From assembly GCA_030620925.1 (NCBI GenBank), contig JAUXIQ010000050.1, positions 1 to 9,291 of the forward strand: DNA of 9,291 bases, read 5' to 3'. A model generated the notes under the pieces. The model saw nothing but the letters and a program-made list of their open reading frames with translations. It made no database searches and was not told the origin of the DNA. Positions 1 to 8,331 of the stretch are shown piece after piece (positions within the stretch are counted from its first letter, which is position 1; the number at the start of each line of letters is the position of its first letter). The stretch comes from JAUXIQ01 sp030620925 [NCBI: Nitrospinota bacterium] (GTDB lineage Bacteria; JAUXIQ01). The position numbers and the translations under genes are program-made.

Positions 1-118
1 CGGTGCGGTCGTTGACCCGGCCCTGTTCATCGGGCAGGCAGGTGCCCATGGGAGCGAAAACGATCCTGTTTTTAAGCTTCAGGGAGCCGATTTTGAACTC
101 TGAAAACAGCATGCCCAT
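1..118 (-). CDS. Old Yellow Enzyme-family FMN oxidoreductase (2,4-dienoyl-CoA reductase/NADH:flavin oxidoreductase type), N-terminus only
   Basis: Only the first 39 codons are in the window; the gene continues off the left edge. Its start, MGMLFSEFKIGSLKLKNRIV followed by FAPMGT, is the typical first beta strand of the OYE/FadH TIM barrel: LF-x-P-[FI]-K-I-G-x-L-x-L-K-N-R-[IV] and then the FMN-contacting A-P-M. In this family a flavin accepts hydride from NAD(P)H and reduces activated C=C bonds, often in enoyl- or dienoyl-CoAs; larger members also carry an FeS cluster and an FAD domain, which cannot be judged here. I chose ATG 118 because GGAG lies 6 nt upstream and the protein then starts like its relatives. 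An in-frame ATG at 148 with GAGGG 7 nt upstream is a real alternative. The gene lies about 165-195 nt downstream of the mutase A small subunit on the same strand, so it may share that operon or have its own promoter. Confidence 0.82.
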   Translation of the reverse strand, partial: MGMLFSEFKIGSLKLKNRIVFAPMGTCLPDEQGRVNDRT

Positions 119-190
119 CTTACTCTCCGGATCAAAAGCGGGCCCCATCCGGTATCCCTCTGGAAAAATCTTCTATTATGTATGGACTAA

Positions 191-224
191 CCCCCACGTT
201 TCGGGCCGGGTAAGAACGCGGGGG
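191..224. other. Imperfect hairpin in the gap before the flavoprotein gene
   Basis: CCCCCACGTT (191-200) and AACGCGGGGG (215-224) form a 10-bp inverted repeat with one mismatch around a 14-nt loop. It lies between the mutase A small subunit stop (313) and the flavoprotein start. No T-run follows on the minus strand, so it is not a standard intrinsic terminator. It could be an RNA-processing or attenuation hairpin, or an operator. Nothing else convincing is seen in 149-312. Confidence 0.3.
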
Positions 225-312
225 AATCGTGATTGGATTCATTAAATCCGGACCCCGGGCGGAAAAGTTTAACCCATCCCGGTCAACCGTGGGAAAGGAT
301 CGAATTCACCGG

Positions 313-720
313 CTAATGTTGTTTGCGGACGTTGTCGCGAATATAGCCAACCATGTCTTTGGTGAGGGAACCCGCTGTAAACACTTCGTCAATACCCAGG
401 TCTTTCATCTCCGGGATGTCCTCCCTGGGAATGACCCCGCCCACCACCACCAGGACGTCTTTTATCTCCTTACCCTGGAGGATTTTGGTGACTTCGGGTG
501 CGAAGGTGAGGTGTTCACCGGAGAGGCAACTCAGGCCGATGACGTCTACGTCCTCCTCGAGGGCCGCCTGGACAACGTTTTCCGGTGTCTGGTAGAGTCC
601 CAGGTAGATTACTTCCATTCCCGCCTCCCGAAAGAGTGAGGCGACAACTTTCGCCCCCCTGTCGTGTCCGTCCAGTCCCAGCTTGGAAATCAGCACTTTT
701 ATCTTTTTATCTTCGTTCAT
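313..720 (-). CDS. Cobalamin-binding small subunit of B12-dependent acyl-CoA mutase (A)
   Basis: This 135-residue protein is a stand-alone B12-binding Rossmann-like domain, the size of the C-terminal domain of methylmalonyl-CoA mutase and of separate small subunits such as those of isobutyryl- and 2-hydroxyisobutyryl-CoA mutases. The three family motifs are present. D17-G-H19-D-R-G22 is the D-x-H-x-x-G element whose His coordinates cobalt from below (base-off/His-on). S64-C-L66 is the S-x-L element. G94-G95 sits in VVVGGVIP near the nucleotide tail. AGGAG lies 8 nt before the ATG. It follows the large subunit A gene by 86 nt on the same strand and is almost certainly its partner, giving a cytoplasmic alpha/beta mutase. 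Homology is certain; the reaction depends on the large subunit, which is atypical. Confidence 0.93.
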   Translation of the reverse strand: MNEDKKIKVLISKLGLDGHDRGAKVVASLFREAGMEVIYLGLYQTPENVVQAALEEDVDVIGLSCLSGEHLTFAPEVTKILQGKEIKDVLVVVGGVIPREDIPEMKDLGIDEVFTAGSLTKDMVGYIRDNVRKQH

Positions 721-768
721 CTATGCTGCTCCTATCCTGTCATTATTCATGATGCCTCCGGTGGCGAA

Positions 769-796
769 ATGCGGGCCCTACGCCGGCATCCCGCAT
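769..796. other. Hairpin between mutase A large and small subunit genes
   Basis: ATGCGGG (769-775) and CCCGCAT (790-796) form a perfect 7-bp inverted repeat around a 14-nt loop in the 86-nt gap between the two mutase A genes. Reading the minus strand, only three Ts follow, so full termination is unlikely. It may set the large:small subunit ratio by partial attenuation or mRNA stability; that is inference. Confidence 0.3.
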
Positions 797-806
797 CCAG
801 GCGGTG

Positions 807-2468
807 TTACTTGAAAGGATTTTCTATGACTTTCAGTGGATCGTAGCTGTAGCCGTAAGCCTCGCGCATGGTGCCCACAATTTCGCCCAGGGTGGCGTAA
901 GCCTTGACGGCGTCAATTATTTCCGGCATAAGGTTGGCTTTTTCGCCCTGGTCTGCTTTTCTGCTCACCGCCTCAAGGGCGTTTCTGACCTTGGTGTTAT
1001 CGCGTCGCTCCTTGAGCTCCCTCACTCGTTTGACCTGTATTTCGGTTGTCTCCGCCGGTATGCGGTGCACTCCGCCGGGGGTCTCCTTTTCCGCTTCAGA
1101 GACGAAAGCGTTAACGCCTACGGTGATCTGCTTAGATTCTTCCAGCTCTTTCTGGCGTTTGAGTGCGGCCTTTTCCATCTCCTTGTCGATCCATTCGGTG
1201 CGCATGGCTTCGTACATACCGCCCAACTCTTCTATTTGCGCCAATATCTCCTCCGCCTTCTTTTCGATCACCCCGGTCAGTGATTCCACGTAATAGGAAC
1301 CTCCCAGAGGGTCGGCCACGCGCGCCACGCCCGTCTCATAGGCCAGTATCTGCTGGGTGCGCAGCGCCAGGAGCTGGGCTTCCTCGGTGGGGAGGGCTAT
1401 CGGCTCGTCGTAGGAGCAGCAGTGGAGAGACTGCACTCCGGCCAGGACGGCGGCCATCGCCTGGTAGGCGACACGGATGATGTTATTGAGCGGCTGTTGG
1501 GGCACCAGTGAGCAGCCGGCGGTGTGCACGGCGAACCTGAACTTGAGGGACCGGGGGTCCTGTGCCCCATACTTCTCTTTGAGTATCTTGGCCCACAGCT
1601 TACGGGCCGCCCTGAGCTTGGCCACCTCCTCGAAAAAATCGACGTGGGAGGAACAGTAGAAGGCCATGCGAGGTGCGAACTGGTCAATTTTCAGGCCCCG
1701 CTCCAGAGCCCCGTCTATGTAGCACATGGCCATGCCCAGCCCGAAGGCTACCTCCTGGGGAGCGTCGATGCCCTGTTCTCTCAAATCGTACATGTTTACG
1801 GTGGTGTTATACCAGTGGGGCATGTTGCGGGCCGTATACTCTATGCTGTCCACGCCCGTCTTGAGGGCCAGTTTCAAGGGCACGGCGGTCCTGAAGCCGC
1901 AGTAGCGGAAGTGCACGGGGTCGTTCTGTATGGTGCCCCTGAGAGTGGAGGGATCGATTCCTCTTTTCTCAGCCACCACCAGGTACTGGGCGAGAATGAC
2001 CGGCGTAGAGCAGGAGGTGGTAATGAGGGACATGCTGGTCTTGTCTATGGCGATGCCGTCCACGAGGTCTTCCATGTCCTCTAAGGAACAGAAGTTGCAC
2101 CCGGTGACACCGATTTCGTCGAAAGCCCTCGGGTGGTCGGGGTCTATCCCCATATGGCTGGGTATATCCAGGATAACGTTCAGCCCTCCAACCCCCTCCG
2201 CCATCTGAAACTTGAGCCTCTTATTGGTGTCGGAGGCGGTGCCGTAGCCGCAGACCTCGCGCCGGGTCCAATATTTACCCCGGTACATATCGGGATGAAT
2301 CCCCCTGGTGTAAGGGTATTGTCCGGGGTCGGCTATTTCCTTTTGGTAATCGATTTGCTCCACGTCTTCCGGCGTATATCTATCAGAGACCGGCAGTCCG
2401 GACCATGTCTCCAACCTCTTCGGTTTCTCAAAGTAGGCATCTTCCATGCCGCTGTTTTCTTCAGCCAT
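807..2468 (-). CDS. B12-dependent acyl-CoA mutase large subunit (A), methylmalonyl-CoA mutase family, non-canonical active site
   Basis: This 553-residue protein is the substrate-binding TIM-barrel subunit of an adenosylcobalamin radical mutase, without a fused cobalamin domain. Family blocks run in order: YPYTRG (51-56), the W-T-R-R-E-V-C-G-Y-G-T segment (67-77), LDIPSHMG (100-107), GTIQND (178-183), DQFAPR (262-267), FFEEVAKLRAAR (278-289), QSLH (346-349), RTQQ (370-373) and DPLGGSYYVE (386-395). These enzymes swap a hydrogen with a neighbouring group such as a CoA-thioester carboxyl. Gln181 matches conserved Gln197 of P. shermanii methylmalonyl-CoA mutase. Tyr89, Arg207 and His244 are replaced by Val72, Gly191 and Asp228; the gene is therefore not a normal methylmalonyl-CoA mutase. 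Ile99 replaces the Asp117 of 2-hydroxyisobutyryl-CoA mutase. It is cysteine-rich (ten Cys). GGAGG lies 6 nt before the ATG. The partner small subunit is 86 nt downstream, and a small membrane protein gene is 38 nt upstream. Confidence 0.93.
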   Translation of the reverse strand: MAEENSGMEDAYFEKPKRLETWSGLPVSDRYTPEDVEQIDYQKEIADPGQYPYTRGIHPDMYRGKYWTRREVCGYGTASDTNKRLKFQMAEGVGGLNVILDIPSHMGIDPDHPRAFDEIGVTGCNFCSLEDMEDLVDGIAIDKTSMSLITTSCSTPVILAQYLVVAEKRGIDPSTLRGTIQNDPVHFRYCGFRTAVPLKLALKTGVDSIEYTARNMPHWYNTTVNMYDLREQGIDAPQEVAFGLGMAMCYIDGALERGLKIDQFAPRMAFYCSSHVDFFEEVAKLRAARKLWAKILKEKYGAQDPRSLKFRFAVHTAGCSLVPQQPLNNIIRVAYQAMAAVLAGVQSLHCCSYDEPIALPTEEAQLLALRTQQILAYETGVARVADPLGGSYYVESLTGVIEKKAEEILAQIEELGGMYEAMRTEWIDKEMEKAALKRQKELEESKQITVGVNAFVSEAEKETPGGVHRIPAETTEIQVKRVRELKERRDNTKVRNALEAVSRKADQGEKANLMPEIIDAVKAYATLGEIVGTMREAYGYSYDPLKVIENPFK

Positions 2469-2506
2469 GATTATCCTCCAGGTCTCTTGTTACGTGCGTC
2501 TTAATT

Positions 2507-2773
2507 TCACATGGGTTTGGGCGGGTCTCCCCTCTCCTCCTCGTCCATAACTTTCATGGAGTTTTTTCCCGACCCGCCGTCCTTATCAGCAGCTATCTCG
2601 CGGAGGTGCTTTTCCATGAGGTCCAATTTATCCAGCATCTCCTTGAGCAGCGGTTTGACCCCGAATATGGAAAAGGGTACTATTATCCACAGAATAGTAA
2701 GAAATAGACTCAGGCCCAGAAATGCCGCCATTAAGCCCCATATATAGCCTGGCATATCCTGCAGTAATTCCAT
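2507..2773 (-). CDS. Small single-pass membrane protein with a charged helical tail, uncharacterised
   Basis: I do not recognise a family. The 88-residue protein has a short acidic N-terminus, one strongly hydrophobic segment at about residues 11-37 (rich in Leu, Ile, Phe and Trp) and an amphipathic charged helix at about 40-62 (KPLLKEMLDKLDLMEKHLREI), which may form a coiled coil. A polar, acidic tail ends in PPKPM. More positive charge after the membrane segment predicts a cytoplasmic C-terminus. GAGG lies 5 nt before the ATG. It is the first gene of the minus-strand cluster, only 38 nt upstream of mutase A large subunit, so the two are very probably co-transcribed. It could tether the mutase or a partner to the membrane, or be an unrelated envelope protein; the sequence does not decide. 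Confidence 0.72.
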   Translation of the reverse strand: MELLQDMPGYIWGLMAAFLGLSLFLTILWIIVPFSIFGVKPLLKEMLDKLDLMEKHLREIAADKDGGSGKNSMKVMDEEERGDPPKPM

Positions 2774-2846
2774 CTCGACCTCTTTTTTATATAAAAAGGC
2801 TCTTTTGGTTAAACATCGTCTGTTTCACTTTCGCAATTAAGTGTAA

Positions 2847-2875
2847 GTATTAGCAAATTGAGAAGACCAGTTCAA
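2847..2875 (-). promoter_or_regulatory. Candidate promoter of the minus-strand mutase A cluster
   Basis: Read on the minus strand, TTGAAC (2875-2870) is separated by 17 nt from TAATAC (2852-2847), preceded by TGC as in an extended -10. The match to consensus is partial (4/6 and 3/6). Position fits: about 70 nt upstream of the first gene of the cluster. No better candidate was seen in this stretch. Confidence 0.35.
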
Positions 2876-3036
2876 GAAAAAACCTATGTTCGCTGAGGGG
2901 ATGAGCGTTGAGAATATTAGGAACCCTTTTTTCCATAGGCCTCCCCGGATAACATCGAGCTCACTCAGAAGAGGCCATCCCCGGGGAACCGACGACGAGC
3001 TCTATACTGACCCCTCCCCCAATTCTGGCACGCCGA

Positions 3037-3051
3037 GGACAGGATTTGTCC
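3037..3051. repeat. Inverted repeat GGACA-N5-TGTCC upstream of the -35 box, candidate operator
   Basis: GGACA (3037-3041) and TGTCC (3047-3051) form a perfect 5-bp dyad with a 5-nt spacer, ending 15 nt before the TTGACA of the plus-strand promoter. A related half-site recurs in the palindrome at 3103-3112. Position upstream of -35 would suit an activator or one arm of a looping repressor; this is inference. Confidence 0.35.
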
Positions 3052-3066
3052 AGTAATAATTTAATG

Positions 3067-3094
3067 TTGACAATGGGGCTTCATCACCTATAAT
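3067..3094 (+). promoter_or_regulatory. Perfect-consensus sigma70-type promoter for the plus-strand cluster
   Basis: TTGACA (3067-3072) and TATAAT (3089-3094) both match the sigma70 consensus at all six positions, with a 16-nt spacer. Transcription should start near 3101, giving a leader of about 94 nt before the MaoC-like gene at 3195. Such a strong core promoter is often held in check by a repressor, and a perfect 10-bp palindrome sits at the predicted start site. Confidence 0.8.
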
Positions 3095-3102
3095 CGAAAG
3101 CG

Positions 3103-3112
3103 GACAGCTGTC
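3103..3112. repeat. 10-bp palindrome at the predicted transcription start, candidate repressor site
   Basis: GACAGCTGTC is a perfect palindrome covering roughly +2 to +12 of the plus-strand promoter. Its half GGACA/TGTC resembles the dyad at 3037-3051; the centres are about 63 bp apart, near six helical turns. The spacers differ (2 versus 5 nt), so a shared regulator is not certain. Confidence 0.4.
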
Positions 3113-3194
3113 ACCTGCCAAACGTATTTACGGAGTATTCTTAGAGATAAAGGCCTTAACCTGGGCGATTCGCTCATTCTGAGAGGAGGCGGGC

Positions 3195-3617
3195 ATGGTA
3201 GACCAGAGTCACATCGGTAAAGTTTTTGACCCCTTTGAGGTAGAAGTGGAGAAGGGAGCAATAATAAAATTTGCAGATGCCGTGGGAGATCAGAATCCCC
3301 TGTACAGTGATCGCAAAGGAGATTTGGAGGCTCCTCCCACGTTCGGAACGACCTTCCGCCCCGCTGAAGGTTTCTTCCAGACCTTTACGGACCTGGATAT
3401 AGACCTCACCAGGGTGCTCCACGGCGAGGAAGAATACGAATATTTAAAGCCTATTAAGCCCGGCGATACGTTGGTTTGCCAGACCAAGGTGGCGAATGTG
3501 TTTGAGAAATCGGGGAAGAGCGGGGGCATGGATTTCGTGGTGCTGGAGACGGAGTGCAAGAACCCCGCCGGTGAACTGGTGCTCATACAGCGGGGCACCA
3601 TAGTGGTGAGGAAATAA
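3195..3617 (+). CDS. MaoC-like N-terminal dehydratase-domain protein (hot-dog fold), catalytic His replaced
   Basis: This 140-residue protein is a single hot-dog domain of the MaoC_dehydrat_N type, found in hydratase/dehydratase subunits acting on acyl-CoA or acyl-ACP. Family features are the long helix block with A-V-G-D-Q-N-P-L-Y-S-D (29-39), APPTF (46-50) and the VLHGEEEYEY...KPGD segment (74-91). The hydratase-2 motif is G-D-x-N-P-[LIV]-H-x-[DE]; here Asp32, Asn34 and Pro35 are kept but the catalytic His is Tyr37. That is common in the N-type half, which pairs with a catalytic MaoC partner, as mycobacterial HadA pairs with HadB. No such partner is visible in the window. AGGAGG lies 5 nt before the ATG. 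The gene is first behind the strong promoter and is followed by a terminator hairpin, so it may be expressed above the genes downstream. Confidence 0.85.
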   Translation: MVDQSHIGKVFDPFEVEVEKGAIIKFADAVGDQNPLYSDRKGDLEAPPTFGTTFRPAEGFFQTFTDLDIDLTRVLHGEEEYEYLKPIKPGDTLVCQTKVANVFEKSGKSGGMDFVVLETECKNPAGELVLIQRGTIVVRK

Positions 3618-3660
3618 CTGACCGCCGTTGTCTGTCAAGCCTCTGTAGGGTTATTATATT

Positions 3661-3695
3661 GAAAACGGGCTGTCGCCTTTCGCGTGCCCGTTTTC
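3661..3695 (+). terminator. Intrinsic terminator-like hairpin after the MaoC-like gene
   Basis: GAAAACGGGC (3661-3670) and GCCCGTTTTC (3686-3695) form a perfect 10-bp stem around a 15-nt loop that can itself pair CGC with GCG. The G+C core is flanked by an A-tract on the left and TTTT on the right, as in an intrinsic terminator, though the T-run is short. It lies 43 nt after the stop at 3617 and could terminate or attenuate read-through to the PrpD-mutase genes. Confidence 0.7.
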
Positions 3696-3698
3696 GTG

Positions 3699-3704
3699 TA
3701 TAAT
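3699..3704 (+). promoter_or_regulatory. Consensus -10 box upstream of the PrpD gene
   Basis: TATAAT lies directly after the terminator hairpin and 57 nt before the PrpD start codon. No good -35 is found 16-18 nt upstream (CTTTCG or CCTTTC), so this is a weak or activator-dependent promoter, or chance. Confidence 0.3.
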
Positions 3705-3761
3705 AGACTAAAAGACCGGCGTATGACTTCTTAAACCAAAAGTATCGCAATAGAGGAAGAG

Positions 3762-5150
3762 ATGGGGATAACCGCCGAACTGGTGAACTTCTACCAGGGG
3801 TTAAAGTTTACGGGCCTTCCCCCGGAAGCCGCGGATAGAGCCAAATACTTTCTGCTCGATTACCTTGGGGTAGCTGCCAGGGGCTCGCTTGAGGAGTCCT
3901 GCAAGGTCATGTACGGGACACTGCGGGCCATGCATCCCTCCGATGACGGTTCGGTGATAATAGGGCGGAAGGGCCGGCTGCCGGCATACATAGCCGCCCT
4001 GGTCAACGGCACCTCAGGCCATAGTATCGAGCTGGACGATGTGAACAACAGCGCATCCCTTCACCCCGCAGTGGCCATATTCCCTACCGCGTTAGCCGTG
4101 GCCCAGGAGCAGGGCAGCGGGCCGGAAGAATTCATCACCGCCGCGGTTGTCGGCTACGATGTTGCCGTTAGGCTGGGAATGGCCCTTGATCCCGCTATGC
4201 ATTACGCTCATGGCTTCCACCCCACAGCCACCTGCGGTACGCTGGGAGCAGCGGCGACGGCGGCCAAGCTTCTGGGCCTGAATGAGGACCAGACGGCCTC
4301 CGCCCTGGGCGTTGCGGGTAGCCAGGCGGCGGGGTCGATGGAGTATTTGAGTAACGGCGCCTGGACCAAGCGTATGCATCCCGGTTGGGCGGCCCACAGC
4401 GGAATTACCGCCGCCTATCTGGCAAAAAACGGCTACGTGGGCCCCGCCACCATCATCGAAGGCAAATCGGGTTTCCTCCATTCATATTCCGACCATTCCA
4501 ATCCCGGCGTGGTGCTTGAGGAATTGGGAGAGGTGTTCCACATCACCCGCACCAGCATCAAACCGCACGCCTGCTGCCGCTATAAACAGGCGGGCATAGA
4601 CGGCGTGCTTAAAATAGTGGGAGAGAACGACCTCACCCCTGCCGATATTAAGAAAATAAGGGTGGGCATTCTGTCCGGGGGGTGGGACATAGTGGTCGAC
4701 CCGCCGGAACAGAAGCGCAACCCCCGCTCCACCGTTGACGCCCAGTTCAGCATGCCCTACGGGGCGGCGGTGGCGGTCGCACGACGCAGGGCATTCATAG
4801 ACGAGTATCAGGTGGAATTATTGTCAGACCCGGTTTTAAAAGAGTTGATGGGGAAAGTCGAGTGTTTCAAAGACCCCGATCTTGACAAGGAATACCCCGC
4901 CCACTGGCCGTCCAGGGTCGAAGTCGAAACGGTCGAGGGGGCCAAACACAGCGTAAAAGTGGATTTCCCGAAGGGGGACCCGGAGAACCCTCTCTCCTGG
5001 GAACAGATAGAAGATAAATTCAGATCACTGGGCTCTTCCGTTTATAGCGGTGAGCGATTGGAGGAGATTATAAAGACCGTAAGGGGCCTGGAAACGAAGG
5101 AGATGGGCGCCCTTTACGGGCTTCTGGAAGCCGATCCGCCCACCTCCTGA
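3762..5150 (+). CDS. MmgE/PrpD family protein (2-methylcitrate dehydratase / cis-aconitate decarboxylase fold)
   Basis: This 462-residue protein has the usual family length. The family includes 2-methylcitrate dehydratase, cis-aconitate decarboxylase and epimerases of polycarboxylic acids; most members act on free di- or tricarboxylates. Motifs in order are GHSIELDD (86-93), H101-P, GYDVAVRLG (131-139), GFHPT (151-155), WTKRMHPGWAAH (201-212), KPHACCRY (267-274) and DAQFSMPYG (326-334). Asp93, His101, His153, Lys203 and His269 line up with the catalytic residues described for cis-aconitate decarboxylase (Asp93, His103, His159, Lys207, His277), so the enzyme looks active. GAGG lies 5 nt before the ATG. 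It is followed after 27 nt by mutase B, so the two are very likely co-transcribed. The substrate is unknown; a branched tricarboxylate feeding or leaving the mutase step is possible. Confidence 0.92.
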   Translation: MGITAELVNFYQGLKFTGLPPEAADRAKYFLLDYLGVAARGSLEESCKVMYGTLRAMHPSDDGSVIIGRKGRLPAYIAALVNGTSGHSIELDDVNNSASLHPAVAIFPTALAVAQEQGSGPEEFITAAVVGYDVAVRLGMALDPAMHYAHGFHPTATCGTLGAAATAAKLLGLNEDQTASALGVAGSQAAGSMEYLSNGAWTKRMHPGWAAHSGITAAYLAKNGYVGPATIIEGKSGFLHSYSDHSNPGVVLEELGEVFHITRTSIKPHACCRYKQAGIDGVLKIVGENDLTPADIKKIRVGILSGGWDIVVDPPEQKRNPRSTVDAQFSMPYGAAVAVARRRAFIDEYQVELLSDPVLKELMGKVECFKDPDLDKEYPAHWPSRVEVETVEGAKHSVKVDFPKGDPENPLSWEQIEDKFRSLGSSVYSGERLEEIIKTVRGLETKEMGALYGLLEADPPTS

Positions 5151-5177
5151 AAGAAGGGCATCGAGGAGATATCCGAC

Positions 5178-6848
5178 ATGTATGAAAAGAAGAAGCTTGA
5201 GGAGATAAAAAAGGAGCGTGAGCGCTACGAAAAGACCACCCTGGAAAAAGTCCTCAGCAAGGTGCCGGAGAAGGACCGTAAGTTCACCAACCTGTCGGGG
5301 ATAGAAATCAAGCGGCTCTATACCCCGGAGGACGTCAAGAGCAGTGATTATCTCGGTGATATCGGCTTCCCCGGTGAGTATCCGTTCACCAGGGGGGTGT
5401 TCCCCGGCGGTTTCAGGAGCAGGGAGTGGACCAGGCGGCAGGTGTGCGGGTTCGGGACGCCGGTGGAGACGAACGAGCGATTGCGCTTCCTGTTCGAAAA
5501 CGGGCAGACCGGCTTCAGCGTGGTCTTCGATCATCCCACCAACAACAACCTGGATAGCGACCATGAGCTTTCCGTGGGTTTCGTGGGGCGCGAGGGTTGC
5601 CCCATAGACACCCTCTGGGACATGCAGACGCTGCTGGAGGGGTTGGACCAGCGCGAAATATCCGCCAACCTGATCACGGGCTCGCCCTCCCTGTACGCCA
5701 TGTACCTGGCCGTGGCCGACGAGCGGGAGGTGCCCCGGGATTGCCTGCGGGGGACACTGCAGAACTTCGCTCTCACCGGCTGGTCCAGCGGCCCCAAGGT
5801 GCGGGACAACATGCGATACAGCGTGGACCAGCTGGATTTCGCCGCCCTCCACCAGCCACTATGGAATCCCCTGAGCATATCCGTGCGAAACGTTCGCGAC
5901 GGGGGCTGCACCGCCGTGCAGGAAGCGGCTTTCGGGCTTGCCGGGGGCATAGCCTATATCGAGCACATGCTGAAGCGCGGCCACGATATAGACAAGTTCG
6001 CCTCGCGCATCACATTCTTCCTTAATGCGCATAACGACCTCTTTGAGGAAGTAGCCAAGTACAGGGCCATGCGCCGCATGTGGGCTAGAATTCTTCGGGA
6101 ACACTTCGGGGCAAAGGACCCCCGGTCGTGGATGATGCGATTCCACGTGCAGACTTCCGGCGATTCGCTCACTGCCCAGCAGCCCCTCAACAATATAGTG
6201 CGCACCAGCCTCCAGGCCCTGGCCGCCGTGCTGGGAGGGGCGCAGTCCATGCACGTGAACTCTGTGGACGAGGCCTTCGCCATACCCACCGAGGACGCCG
6301 CCGTGCTGAGCCTTCGCACCCAGCAGATAATCCTTTATGAGTCCGGCGTGGCCAACACCGTGGACCCCCTGGGCGGCTCCTATTTCGTGGAGCATCTCAC
6401 CGACCGCATTGAAGAAGAGGTCAACCAGCTCATAGAGAAGATAGACGGCATGGGCGGCATGGTTGAAGCCTGCGCCTCGGGGTGGGTGGCCCGCCAGACA
6501 CAGGATTCGGCGTGGGAATACCAGAAGCAGGTGGAGAGGAATGAGAGGATAGTGGTGGGGGTTAACGAGTTCCAGAGCGAGAAGGAGAGCATGCCCATAG
6601 AGGTTTTCGAGGTGGACCCCGTGCTGGAAAAGAAGCAGATTGAGCGCCTCAAAAAAGTTCTCAAAGAAAGGGATGAAGCGAAGGCGGAGAAAGCCAAGAA
6701 AGATCTGCTCGACGTATGCCGCGGCAAGGAGAACACCATGCCCGCCACGATCGAGGCGGTTAAAGCCTACGTTTCAGTCGGCGAGATCGGGGGCATATAT
6801 GATGAAGCCTTAGGGGAAGATCTTTCAAACGCCTGCGCCAGCCAGTAG
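5178..6848 (+). CDS. B12-dependent acyl-CoA mutase large subunit (B), methylmalonyl-CoA mutase family, non-canonical active site
   Basis: This 556-residue protein is a second TIM-barrel subunit of an adenosylcobalamin mutase without a fused B12 domain. A charged helical N-terminal arm (1-35) recalls that of 2-hydroxyisobutyryl-CoA mutase and is absent from copy A. Family blocks are YPFTRG (68-73), RRQVCGFGT (86-94), FDHPT (117-121), GTLQN (192-196), DKFASR (272-277), LFEEVAKYRAMRR (288-300), NNIVRTSLQALAAVLGGAQS (338-357) and DPLGGSYFVE (396-405). Gln195 matches Gln197 of P. shermanii mutase. Tyr89, Arg207, Tyr243 and His244 correspond to Val89, Gly205, Arg237 and Asn238, and the Arg207 region is four residues shorter. 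Val116 replaces Asp117 of 2-hydroxyisobutyryl-CoA mutase. None of the named mutases fits. GAGGAG lies 9 nt before the ATG; the small subunit follows after 50 nt. Confidence 0.93.
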   Translation: MYEKKKLEEIKKERERYEKTTLEKVLSKVPEKDRKFTNLSGIEIKRLYTPEDVKSSDYLGDIGFPGEYPFTRGVFPGGFRSREWTRRQVCGFGTPVETNERLRFLFENGQTGFSVVFDHPTNNNLDSDHELSVGFVGREGCPIDTLWDMQTLLEGLDQREISANLITGSPSLYAMYLAVADEREVPRDCLRGTLQNFALTGWSSGPKVRDNMRYSVDQLDFAALHQPLWNPLSISVRNVRDGGCTAVQEAAFGLAGGIAYIEHMLKRGHDIDKFASRITFFLNAHNDLFEEVAKYRAMRRMWARILREHFGAKDPRSWMMRFHVQTSGDSLTAQQPLNNIVRTSLQALAAVLGGAQSMHVNSVDEAFAIPTEDAAVLSLRTQQIILYESGVANTVDPLGGSYFVEHLTDRIEEEVNQLIEKIDGMGGMVEACASGWVARQTQDSAWEYQKQVERNERIVVGVNEFQSEKESMPIEVFEVDPVLEKKQIERLKKVLKERDEAKAEKAKKDLLDVCRGKENTMPATIEAVKAYVSVGEIGGIYDEALGEDLSNACASQ

Positions 6849-6898
6849 AGACTCTTTGGGTGTTTTGATATGACCGAGAGATAAGGATAACTTAAGAT

Positions 6899-7312
6899 AT
6901 GATAGCTGACAGAAGGATAAGGGTGCTTTTAGCCAAACCGGGGTTGGACGCCCAGCACGACAGAGGCTATTTCATTGTGGGCAGGGCCTTGAGAGAAGCG
7001 GGCATGGAGGTGATAATGGCGGGTAAATATCTTACCCCCGCCCAGATAGCCCAGGCCTCCATACAGGAGGACGTGGATTTCATCGGCCTCAGCCTCCTCT
7101 CAGGCACGCCGCTGGCGATAGTGACGCCCCTCCTGGAACGACTCAAGGAAATGGCGGGAGAAAACATTCCCATCCTGCTGGGGGGCATCATCCCCAAAAG
7201 GGAGGTTCCGGAGCTTCAAAAGCTGGACATTCTGGGTCTGTTCGGCCCGGGAACGCCGACCAATAAAATAGTAGAGTTTATCCGACAGAAAGCCGGGGCG
7301 GCCAAAGAATAA
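6899..7312 (+). CDS. Cobalamin-binding small subunit of B12-dependent acyl-CoA mutase (B), altered cobalt-ligand motif
   Basis: This 137-residue protein is a stand-alone B12-binding domain, similar in length and layout to the copy at 313-720 and encoded just after mutase B large subunit, its expected partner. The S-x-L element (S65-L-L67), the GG of LLGGIIP (95-96) and the FGPGT loop (115-119) are present. The cobalt-ligand motif is unusual: D17-A-Q-H20-D-R-G23, so one residue is inserted between Asp and His compared with D-x-H-x-x-G. The Asp that normally hydrogen-bonds the ligand His is therefore three, not two, residues before it. The codons are clear (GAC GCC CAG CAC), so this is not a frameshift. 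AAGGA lies 11 nt before the ATG, a weak site that may lower its expression or rely on translation from upstream. Confidence 0.9.
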   Translation: MIADRRIRVLLAKPGLDAQHDRGYFIVGRALREAGMEVIMAGKYLTPAQIAQASIQEDVDFIGLSLLSGTPLAIVTPLLERLKEMAGENIPILLGGIIPKREVPELQKLDILGLFGPGTPTNKIVEFIRQKAGAAKE

Positions 7313-7389
7313 CCAGAGTCTTTTTTGGTTTTGAAATATGTTTTGGGTATTTGCATGCCTGCGCAGTTACTTCAAGGCGAGCCGGTATA

Positions 7390-8331
7390 ATGGGTGAGAA
7401 CAGGATAGCTGTCATAGGAATGGGGCCTATAGGCTCTCTGATGGCGGCGCTGCTGCTGGCAGAAGGTGAAGACGTGATACTGGTGGGGAGGCCCAACGCT
7501 CACCTCCAGGCCGTAAGGGAGCATGGGCTGACGCTGCGGGGCGTCTTTGAGGCCGGTGTACGGCCTCAGAAGATATGCGATTCGGTGTCCGAGCTGAGAG
7601 AACACGACGTAGACCTGGTCTTCGTGACGGTGAAGACGCCCGACCTGTTGTCCCTGATGGATGAGCTTCAGCCTCTGCACCGGCCGGGAATCAGGTACGT
7701 CAGCGCGCAGAACGGGTTGGATACCGAGAAAGTCATTGCCGACCGGATGGGCCCGGAATCGGCTTTCAGGATGGTCCTCAACATGGGTTCCTCCATAGTA
7801 GAGGAGGGGGTAATTGAAACCACCTTTTTCAACCGCCCCCATCAGTTGGGGTGTTTGACCGAGGAGAACCGCGAAGAGGGCCAGCGGATAGCCCGCATGC
7901 TTACCGATGCGGGGTTGGAGACCGTCTTCACCGATGATATAGACATGCTGATCTGGAAGAAGTCCATCATGAAATCCACCCTGGCCCCTATATGCGCCCT
8001 GGCGGATACCACGCTCAAGGGGAGCATAGACCACCCCATGACCAAACAGGTGGCGGAGGGGGCGCTGCGGGAGGGAATCGAGGTGGCGCTGGCCGTGGGG
8101 ATAGAACTCCCTCCCGACTTTTTCGAGCAGTGTATGGATTTTTTCAACAGGGCGGGCTATCATAAAGACTCCATGCGTGTGGACATAGAGAACAGAAAAC
8201 CAACCGAAATAGATTATCTGAACATTAAAATCATGGACTACGCCCGGCAGAAGAACATCCCCACCCCTTATCTCCTTACTACTGCCAGCCTGGTGAAAGC
8301 GCTGGAGTCGCAATACGCGAAGGATAAGTAG
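7390..8331 (+). CDS. Ketopantoate reductase (ApbA/PanE) family NAD(P)-dependent dehydrogenase, atypical substrate site
   Basis: This 313-residue protein has the two-domain plan of 2-dehydropantoate 2-reductases, which reduce ketopantoate with NADPH for pantothenate and CoA synthesis. The N-terminal Rossmann motif is G10-M-G12-P-I-G15; Q-N108-G-L is the hinge Asn motif. In the helical domain, Lys191 (in IWKKS), Ser261 and Glu273 (in TEIDYLN) match E. coli Lys176, Ser244 and Glu256. The positions of substrate-binding Asn180 and Asn184 are Lys195 and Ala199, so the substrate may not be ketopantoate. I chose ATG 7390 rather than an in-frame TTG at 7351, because it places the nucleotide motif at the usual distance from the start; its Shine-Dalgarno is weak (AAGG, 12 nt). 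It follows mutase B small subunit by 77 nt and could reduce an oxo intermediate of the same pathway. Confidence 0.87.
   Translation: MGENRIAVIGMGPIGSLMAALLLAEGEDVILVGRPNAHLQAVREHGLTLRGVFEAGVRPQKICDSVSELREHDVDLVFVTVKTPDLLSLMDELQPLHRPGIRYVSAQNGLDTEKVIADRMGPESAFRMVLNMGSSIVEEGVIETTFFNRPHQLGCLTEENREEGQRIARMLTDAGLETVFTDDIDMLIWKKSIMKSTLAPICALADTTLKGSIDHPMTKQVAEGALREGIEVALAVGIELPPDFFEQCMDFFNRAGYHKDSMRVDIENRKPTEIDYLNIKIMDYARQKNIPTPYLLTTASLVKALESQYAKDK

Follow-up and report, generated by a model that had tools for sequence, protein, structure and literature searches.

The 9,291-nucleotide stretch analysed here (the window), from the Nitrospinota bacterium JAUXIQ01 sp030620925, is contig C122 of the metagenome-assembled genome (MAG) G000, which comprises 2.5 Mb in 445 contigs and is 89.47% complete and 3.55% contaminated. 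It carries two complete large/small pairs of B12-dependent acyl-CoA mutase subunits (mutases 1 and 2), lying back to back as an earlier reading made from the sequence alone (the sequence-only reading) had described. Scanning of the open reading frames (ORFs) with Pfam and NCBIfam identified in each pair a PF01642 large domain and a B12-binding partner, which places both in the B12-dependent acyl-CoA mutase superfamily, and the reading frames of both pairs are intact. The features of the window, in its own coordinates, are as follows.

2–118, minus strand: OYE/NADH:flavin oxidoreductase-family gene, truncated at the contig end so that only its start remains (39 aa; Oxidored_FMN E 5.4e-4, 19.8 bits, below the cut-off of 27)
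313–720, minus strand: small B12-binding subunit 1 (B12-binding 93.9 bits; TIGR00640 154.8 bits, above cut-off; K..LDGHDRG motif)
807–2468, minus strand: mutase large subunit 1, Val89/Asp244/His330 type (553 aa; PF01642 585 bits; TIGR00641 551.7 bits)
2507–2773, minus strand: 88-aa ORF upstream of mutase 1 and on the same strand (ORF only)
about 2774–3194: divergent intergenic region between the 88-aa ORF and the MaoC-like gene
3195–3617, plus strand: MaoC-like/FAS1_DH hydratase-fold protein (PF13452 105.7 bits)
3762–5150, plus strand: MmgE/PrpD-family protein (PF03972/PF19305)
5178–6848, plus strand: mutase large subunit 2, Val89/Arg243-Asn244 type (556 aa; PF01642 574.1 bits)
6899–7312, plus strand: small B12-binding subunit 2 (B12-binding 61.5 bits; TIGR00640 117 bits, above cut-off; LDAQHDRG)
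7351 (or 7390)–8331, plus strand: ketopantoate-reductase (KPR)-fold oxidoreductase (ApbA/ApbA_C; TIGR00745 184.6 bits, above cut-off), for which the ATG at 7390 seems a likelier start than 7351

The active-site residues of the large subunits are numbered after P. shermanii methylmalonyl-CoA mutase (MCM, PDB entry 1req), aligned with two further MCMs (2xij and 6oxc) and with 2-hydroxyisobutyryl-CoA mutase (HCM, 4r3u). The numbering is anchored at residue 89 by entry 5req, titled Y89F, which has Phe where 1req has Tyr in the alignment; position 244 is assigned because the same numbering applies to it, entry 1e1c being titled H244A. We take positions 207 and 244 to be substrate or catalytic residues of MCM; His244 is hydrogen-bonded to the thioester carbonyl and shields the radical. 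The three MCMs display Y89/R207/H244, HCM displays I89/Q207/H244 together with Asp at 116, and a further set of rows displays F89/Q207/H244, which we take to be the pattern of isobutyryl-CoA mutase (ICM). Mutase 1 carries Val89, Ile116, Gly at 207, Asp244, Ala328 and His330, and mutase 2 carries Val89, Val116, Arg243, Asn244, His328 and Gln330, with Ser or a gap at 207, depending on the alignment, and no equivalent of Arg207. At positions 89, 116, 207 and 244 the two enzymes therefore read V/I/G/D and V/V/(Ser or gap)/N, and neither has the MCM, the ICM-type or the HCM combination. The MCM equivalog NF006944 gave 454.9 and 441.4 bits against a cut-off of 876, a value out of reach of split subunits as the model describes a fused protein of 721 positions. 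The N-terminal (alpha-type) model scored 545–552 bits on the large subunits of the window versus 180–188 bits for the MCM beta model.

The substitutions at position 244 recur in an alignment of 158 rows, composed of the four PDB references and of sequences from fetched loci picked as relatives or best matches, and not as a survey, with rows shorter than 380 aa dropped. His244 is present in 88 rows, including all four reference structures, Asp244 in 38 and the Arg243-Asn244 pair in eight. His330 accompanies Asp244 in 36 of these 38 rows, while the residue at 330 in the His244 rows is Gln (77 rows), Gly (eight rows) or His, Val and Ala (one row each). The substituted residues of both mutases are conserved across distant genomes. 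Still other divergent classes, in which position 244 is Val or Phe, were encountered at L163, L226, L227 and L228 (genomes G063, G065 and G059), and a plasmid of Paraburkholderia sp. PGU19 (L233) encodes an Ile89/Asp244 mutase with a small subunit, MeaB, two acyl-CoA dehydrogenases and an enoyl-CoA hydratase.

In a FastTree phylogeny of the 158 rows, the two enzymes belong to two distinct conserved subfamilies, neither of which contains a PDB reference: mutase 1 falls in a 41-row clade, mainly Asp244 (SH 0.997), and mutase 2 belongs to a clade of eight rows (SH 1.0), the forks directly outside the latter being weak (0.27, 0.115 and 0.587). The 21 F89/H244 (ICM-type) rows form a separate clade of their own, and both window mutases stand outside the 4-row HCM clade. 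A quick IQ-TREE tree of 49 chosen rows gathered MCM, ICM type and HCM in one 19-row clade (SH-aLRT 99) without the window mutases. These are the characterised groups that the trees cover, named ethylmalonyl-CoA mutase (ECM), pivalyl-CoA mutase (PCM), IaaG and McmL sequences being absent from them. In approximately unbiased (AU) tests, joining mutase 1 to the 19 canonical rows was rejected (p-AU 2.2e-54), as was pairing mutases 1 and 2 as sisters (p-AU 2.4e-72), and joining mutase 2 to the canonical rows was weakly rejected (p-AU 0.0195). The outcome that the sequence-only reading had set against its own proposal, with both large subunits inside a characterised clade, was thus not observed for MCM, ICM type or HCM, weakly so for mutase 2. 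Both large subunits do carry the R[EQ]VCG[YF]GT signature reported by that reading (WTRREVCGYGT in mutase 1 and WTRRQVCGFGT in mutase 2). Its claim that the substrate site is unlike those of methylmalonyl-, isobutyryl-, ethylmalonyl- and 2-hydroxyisobutyryl-CoA mutases holds with respect to MCM, ICM type and HCM, but the signature indicates no common specificity, because each enzyme lies in a well-supported clade of its own and the rest of their active-site residues are not alike. The shared VCG motif marks no single subfamily, a candidate grouping ruled out by the AU test of the sister pair. In plasmid searches, no match to mutase 2 reached 60% identity or more, no ECM name occurred among the matches listed (60 of 421 rows), and no IaaG or McmL name among those listed (15 of 426 rows).

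The small subunits differ in their cobalamin motif, whose Lys, Asp and His we take to be MCM positions 604, 608 and 610. In the alignment, small subunit 1 keeps the motif as K..LDGHDRG, the DxHxxG part is one residue longer in small subunit 2 (LDAQHDRG), and His610 is invariant in all 11 small subunits aligned. At two other loci, a single small subunit (L149, 4498–4905; L150, 2140–2565) is tightly enclosed between two unlike large subunits, of the Ile89/Val244 and Asp244 types, which might share it; the order at L151 is similar with a wider gap. An AlphaFold model of mutase 2, obtained from a 14-row alignment, is of middling confidence (pLDDT 70.9, pTM 0.71) and was used for the fold only. Its top Foldseek match is 4r3u_A (E 4.1e-39, TM 0.74, 42% identity, rmsd 12.8), and 5cjw, IcmF with pivalyl-CoA, is a lower-ranked one. 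In this model the strand 229–235 stops just short of Arg237-Asn238; R237, N238 and R240 are invariant in all eight rows of the mutase-2 clade.

The partner families named by the sequence-only reading, MaoC-like, MmgE/PrpD and ketopantoate reductase, were recovered by Pfam, the OYE-type start only below cut-off. The PrpD-family protein was compared with solved structures, where iminodisuccinate epimerase (2hp3, 144.1 bits) and cis-aconitate decarboxylase (12vw, 127.1 bits) are its nearest relatives and 2-methylcitrate dehydratase (5mvi, 28.9 bits) is far more distant; the NCBIfam equivalogs for 2-methylcitrate dehydratase remain far below cut-off as well (52.7 vs 950, 25.1 vs 575 and 19.3 vs 458 bits). 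The protein does not belong to the 2-methylcitrate dehydratase branch of the family. The MaoC-like protein has weak PDB matches only, one at 31.2 bits to peroxisomal multifunctional enzyme type 2 and one at 28.6 bits to a UPF0336 protein, and the top match of the KPR-fold protein is 3wfi (83.2 bits). A single regulatory region had been placed between the two clusters: the divergent region is there, but the 88-aa ORF, which has no Pfam match, stands between it and mutase 1. A sigma70-type consensus, TTGACA-16-TATAAT, lies at 3067–3094 on the plus strand, matching at 12 of 12 positions and standing some 100 bases ahead of the MaoC-like gene, and four sigma70-type sites occur in 2400–3800 versus 1.4 ± 1.1 in shuffles. 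No riboswitch or other RNA family of Rfam matched the window at gathering score. No VOC-type epimerase was reported from the eight window ORFs scanned; on another contig of the same genome (C226; L058, 3471–4448), a protein adjoining a mutase resembles the VOC fold by eye and is possibly an epimerase.

Pieces of the neighbourhood recur elsewhere. G063 and G069 each have a mutase-2-type gene with its small subunit next to a TRAP transporter gene; the same stretch encodes a second mutase (Val89/His244) as well as PrpD-family, AMP-binding, enoyl-CoA hydratase, GntR and CoA-transferase proteins. The two genomes are close kin (RpoB 95%) and thus hardly independent. An OYE-family gene lies beside the mutase pair in G069, and in G105 a mutase-2-type pair is found near two CoA-transferase-like genes and an OYE-family gene. 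The conservation of neighbourhood anticipated by the sequence-only reading thus extends to PrpD-family genes and a second mutase in two related genomes and to OYE-family genes in two genomes, but the arrangement is never the same. For the Asp244 type, a mutase on the Rokubacteria contig L182 has a PrpD-family gene about 4.6 kb away, and at L153 a protein related to the MaoC-like one (49%) is encoded about 5 kb from a Leu89/Asp244 mutase. In G000 itself, OYE-family genes are also close to the mutases on contigs C118 and C97. Within 5 kb of 27 Asp244 mutases we counted acyl-CoA dehydrogenase clusters at 15, another mutase at 11, enoyl-CoA hydratases at seven and SDR proteins at five, with families assigned by one representative each and only part of the loci covered (mutases in L059, L061, L062, L167, L169 and L170 and one in L185 are left out). 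Calling of genes as longest ORFs is unreliable in GC-rich loci, for example L167, L169, L170, L180, L182, L184 and L185.

Mutases are numerous in G000, where PF01642 has 19 matches on 17 contigs, 13 near full length and six partial; since four of the partial matches are overlapping N-terminal pieces, at least 17 mutase genes are present. Strain duplicates are an unlikely source of these matches, whose top pairwise identity is 63%, and some of the 17 contigs could be foreign in a MAG so fragmented and 3.55% contaminated. Among the 17 mutases of G000 with readable residues, ten are without His244 and five have Y89/R207/H244. When 59 genomes were queried with mutase 2, there were 19 matches in G000 and between zero and four in each of the 58 others. 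Nineteen genomes were picked by the motif W[TS]xR[EQ][VILM]CG[FY]G (23 stretches), a choice biased towards mutase-rich genomes, and gave 30, 16, 6, 1, 19, 9, 26, 11, 11, 26, 13, 23, 5, 6, 9, 15, 7, 19 and 22 PF01642 matches, fragments included; those with more than 20 are four Deltaproteobacteria MAGs and one titled 'bacterium'. By title, several Deltaproteobacteria MAGs of the mutase-rich set come from groundwater. Eight more genomes, picked for high scores or many candidates, have 13 (G105), 5, 4, 3, 3, 5, 6 and 5 matches. One MAG titled Alphaproteobacteria (G076, Arabian10_MAG_43; L212–L216) has 19, with one Ala89/Asn244 form.

Profiles of the two types were scored across 386 genomes, with no more than three candidates scored in each genome and types judged by score, not by residues. 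The top scores of the mutase-2 profile are 958.6 bits in G105, 908.5 for the window and 665.2 for the next candidate, and those of the mutase-1 profile are 962–1018 for three genes of G000 itself, 763.7 in G308, 744.4 in G169 and 678.8 for the next. A pattern scan of genome contigs with mutase 2 matched 21 stretches and yielded no confirmed relative. The RpoB of G000 has 56–63% identity to the other bacterial RpoBs listed, and its placement gave no relative nearer than the level of domain among the genomes compared. No MeaB/ArgK gene was detected among the window ORFs scanned, an absence previously taken as an argument against ordinary propionate metabolism. This argument falls, as one copy is found elsewhere in G000 (contig C209, 368.9 bits) and the absence is an effect of the window. 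MeaB (TIGR00750, above cut-off) was detected once in G000, not in G064 or G070, and one to three times in each of the other 16 of 19 genomes, the 18 genomes compared with G000 being mostly mutase-rich.

We consider, with a probability of about 0.6, that the window encodes two separate adenosylcobalamin (AdoCbl)-dependent two-subunit acyl-CoA mutases of uncharacterised specificity, inside a catabolic cluster for carboxylic, presumably branched, acids. Judged from sequence, each pair has the look of a genuine AdoCbl-dependent mutase whose acyl pocket has been rebuilt, and the altered residues may reflect a new substrate. Because these pockets are without the carboxylate-binding Arg207 and the bulky residue 89, the acyl group is likely larger or differently substituted. 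The small subunit would hold AdoCbl over the barrel of the large subunit, and the 5'-deoxyadenosyl radical would remove hydrogen from the acyl chain, after which either a substituent or the CoA-thioester group would move to the adjacent carbon, shifting the branch so that β-oxidation can go on. The polar contacts of His244 might be taken over by Asp244 and His330 in mutase 1 and by Arg243-Asn244 in mutase 2. The MaoC-like, OYE-type, PrpD-family and KPR-fold proteins could subsequently hydrate, reduce, epimerise or decarboxylate, and oxidise the products.

Several observations weigh against this reading. The Asp244 rows mostly form one clade, so that the 244/330 exchange counts as few events, the rejection of mutase 2 from the canonical rows is weak, and the groups of the AU tests were named only after inspection of the tree. 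The gene arrangement of the window was not found in the other genomes sampled, the 88-aa ORF and the KPR gene had no further tblastn match at 1e-6 in 57 loci, window included, and no CoA ligase, CoA-transferase or acyl-CoA dehydrogenase was identified among the window ORFs scanned with Pfam. Finally, in the four aligned relatives of small subunit 2 neither Lys604 (replaced by Arg in L177) nor Asp608 is kept, which could indicate altered or lost cobalamin chemistry.

The strongest rival, although rather unlikely, is a reaction on dicarboxylic acyl-CoAs, as with IaaGH or the proposed alkylsuccinyl-CoA mutases, in which a substituted succinyl-CoA would be converted into a substituted malonyl-CoA for subsequent decarboxylation or oxidation. 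The carboxylate would be bound by a new arginine, Arg243 in mutase 2 and an Arg at about 204 in mutase 1; Arg243 is invariant in the eight rows of its clade, but Arg207 is gone from both mutases. The acyl-CoA dehydrogenase clusters near 15 of 27 Asp244 mutases speak for such a reaction, since, in the part of the source available, IaaF is a decarboxylating acyl-CoA dehydrogenase that acts after the benzylmalonyl-CoA mutase IaaGH in indoleacetate degradation (PMC8360864). By that description, the IaaGH cluster also combines CoA-transferase and acyl-CoA dehydrogenase, as the clusters of several relatives suggest; the window ORFs scanned contain no such dehydrogenase. It is improbable that either pair, or both, consists of homologues without activity or with a regulatory role, or of decayed paralogues. 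The model for this would be heterodimeric MCM, which has a silent beta subunit, and such a role is possible mainly for mutase 2. Both enzymes are without His244, the cobalamin motif of small subunit 2 is disturbed and its relatives show the losses mentioned above, and L149 and L150 place two unlike large subunits around one small subunit. Against inactivity stand the intact reading frames, the conservation of the altered residues across distant genomes, the invariant His610 and the scores of the alpha-type model over those of the beta model.

Ordinary methylmalonyl-, isobutyryl- or 2-hydroxyisobutyryl-CoA mutases with drifted motifs are very unlikely. HcmAB (4r3u) shares the two-subunit build and is the top solved-structure match of both large subunits, in sequence for both and in fold for mutase 2, and the exclusion of mutase 2 from the canonical rows is weak. 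However, the window mutases are without its Ile89, Asp116, Gln207 and His244 and lie outside the HCM clade, and the AU test firmly excludes mutase 1 from the canonical rows. MCM belongs to the same Pfam family and small subunit 1 keeps its cobalamin motif, but Y89, R207 and H244 are all replaced and the subunits unfused in the window, while five other genes of G000 retain the MCM residues. We take ICM itself to have a large/small arrangement like that of the window pairs, which nevertheless miss F89/Q207/H244 and, unlike IcmF, have no fused GTPase. Least likely of all, the two large subunits would form one mixed complex or serve one substrate in two directions: a second mutase does lie within 5 kb of 11 of the 27 Asp244 mutases, but in the window each large subunit is paired with a separate small one, and the tree sets the two large subunits well apart.

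The literature searched, which left most subscription journals outside, contained, in the parts available, no account of these mutase subfamilies or of their expansion. In the portions available, PMC11599936 and PMC10481361 deal with known mutases, and the H244 of PMC4428469 concerns a methionine synthase variant.

Beyond the window, we tentatively suggest, at somewhat less than even odds, that uncultured Deltaproteobacteria, Rokubacteria and the deep lineage of the window have radiated mutases, with as many as some 30 gene matches in one genome, and have replaced His244 in several ways (Asp244 with a new His330, Arg243-Asn244 and others). These enzymes would carry out the radical rearrangement of acyl-CoAs, branched or alicyclic, that are not known to be mutase substrates, and would give anaerobes a modular route past quaternary or misplaced branches. 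Few B12-dependent acyl-CoA mutase reactions are, to our knowledge, known, and natural replacements of His244 could broaden the known substrate range of radical carbon-skeleton rearrangements. Natural enzymes with Asp (with His330) or Arg-Asn at this position would directly probe what His244 is for. That Deltaproteobacteria MAGs and the lineage of the window possess mutase sets of this size suggests an overlooked degradation strategy for branched or refractory acids, perhaps without oxygen, and the unusual active sites, together with this large set, may point to unknown routes for the breakdown of branched acids.

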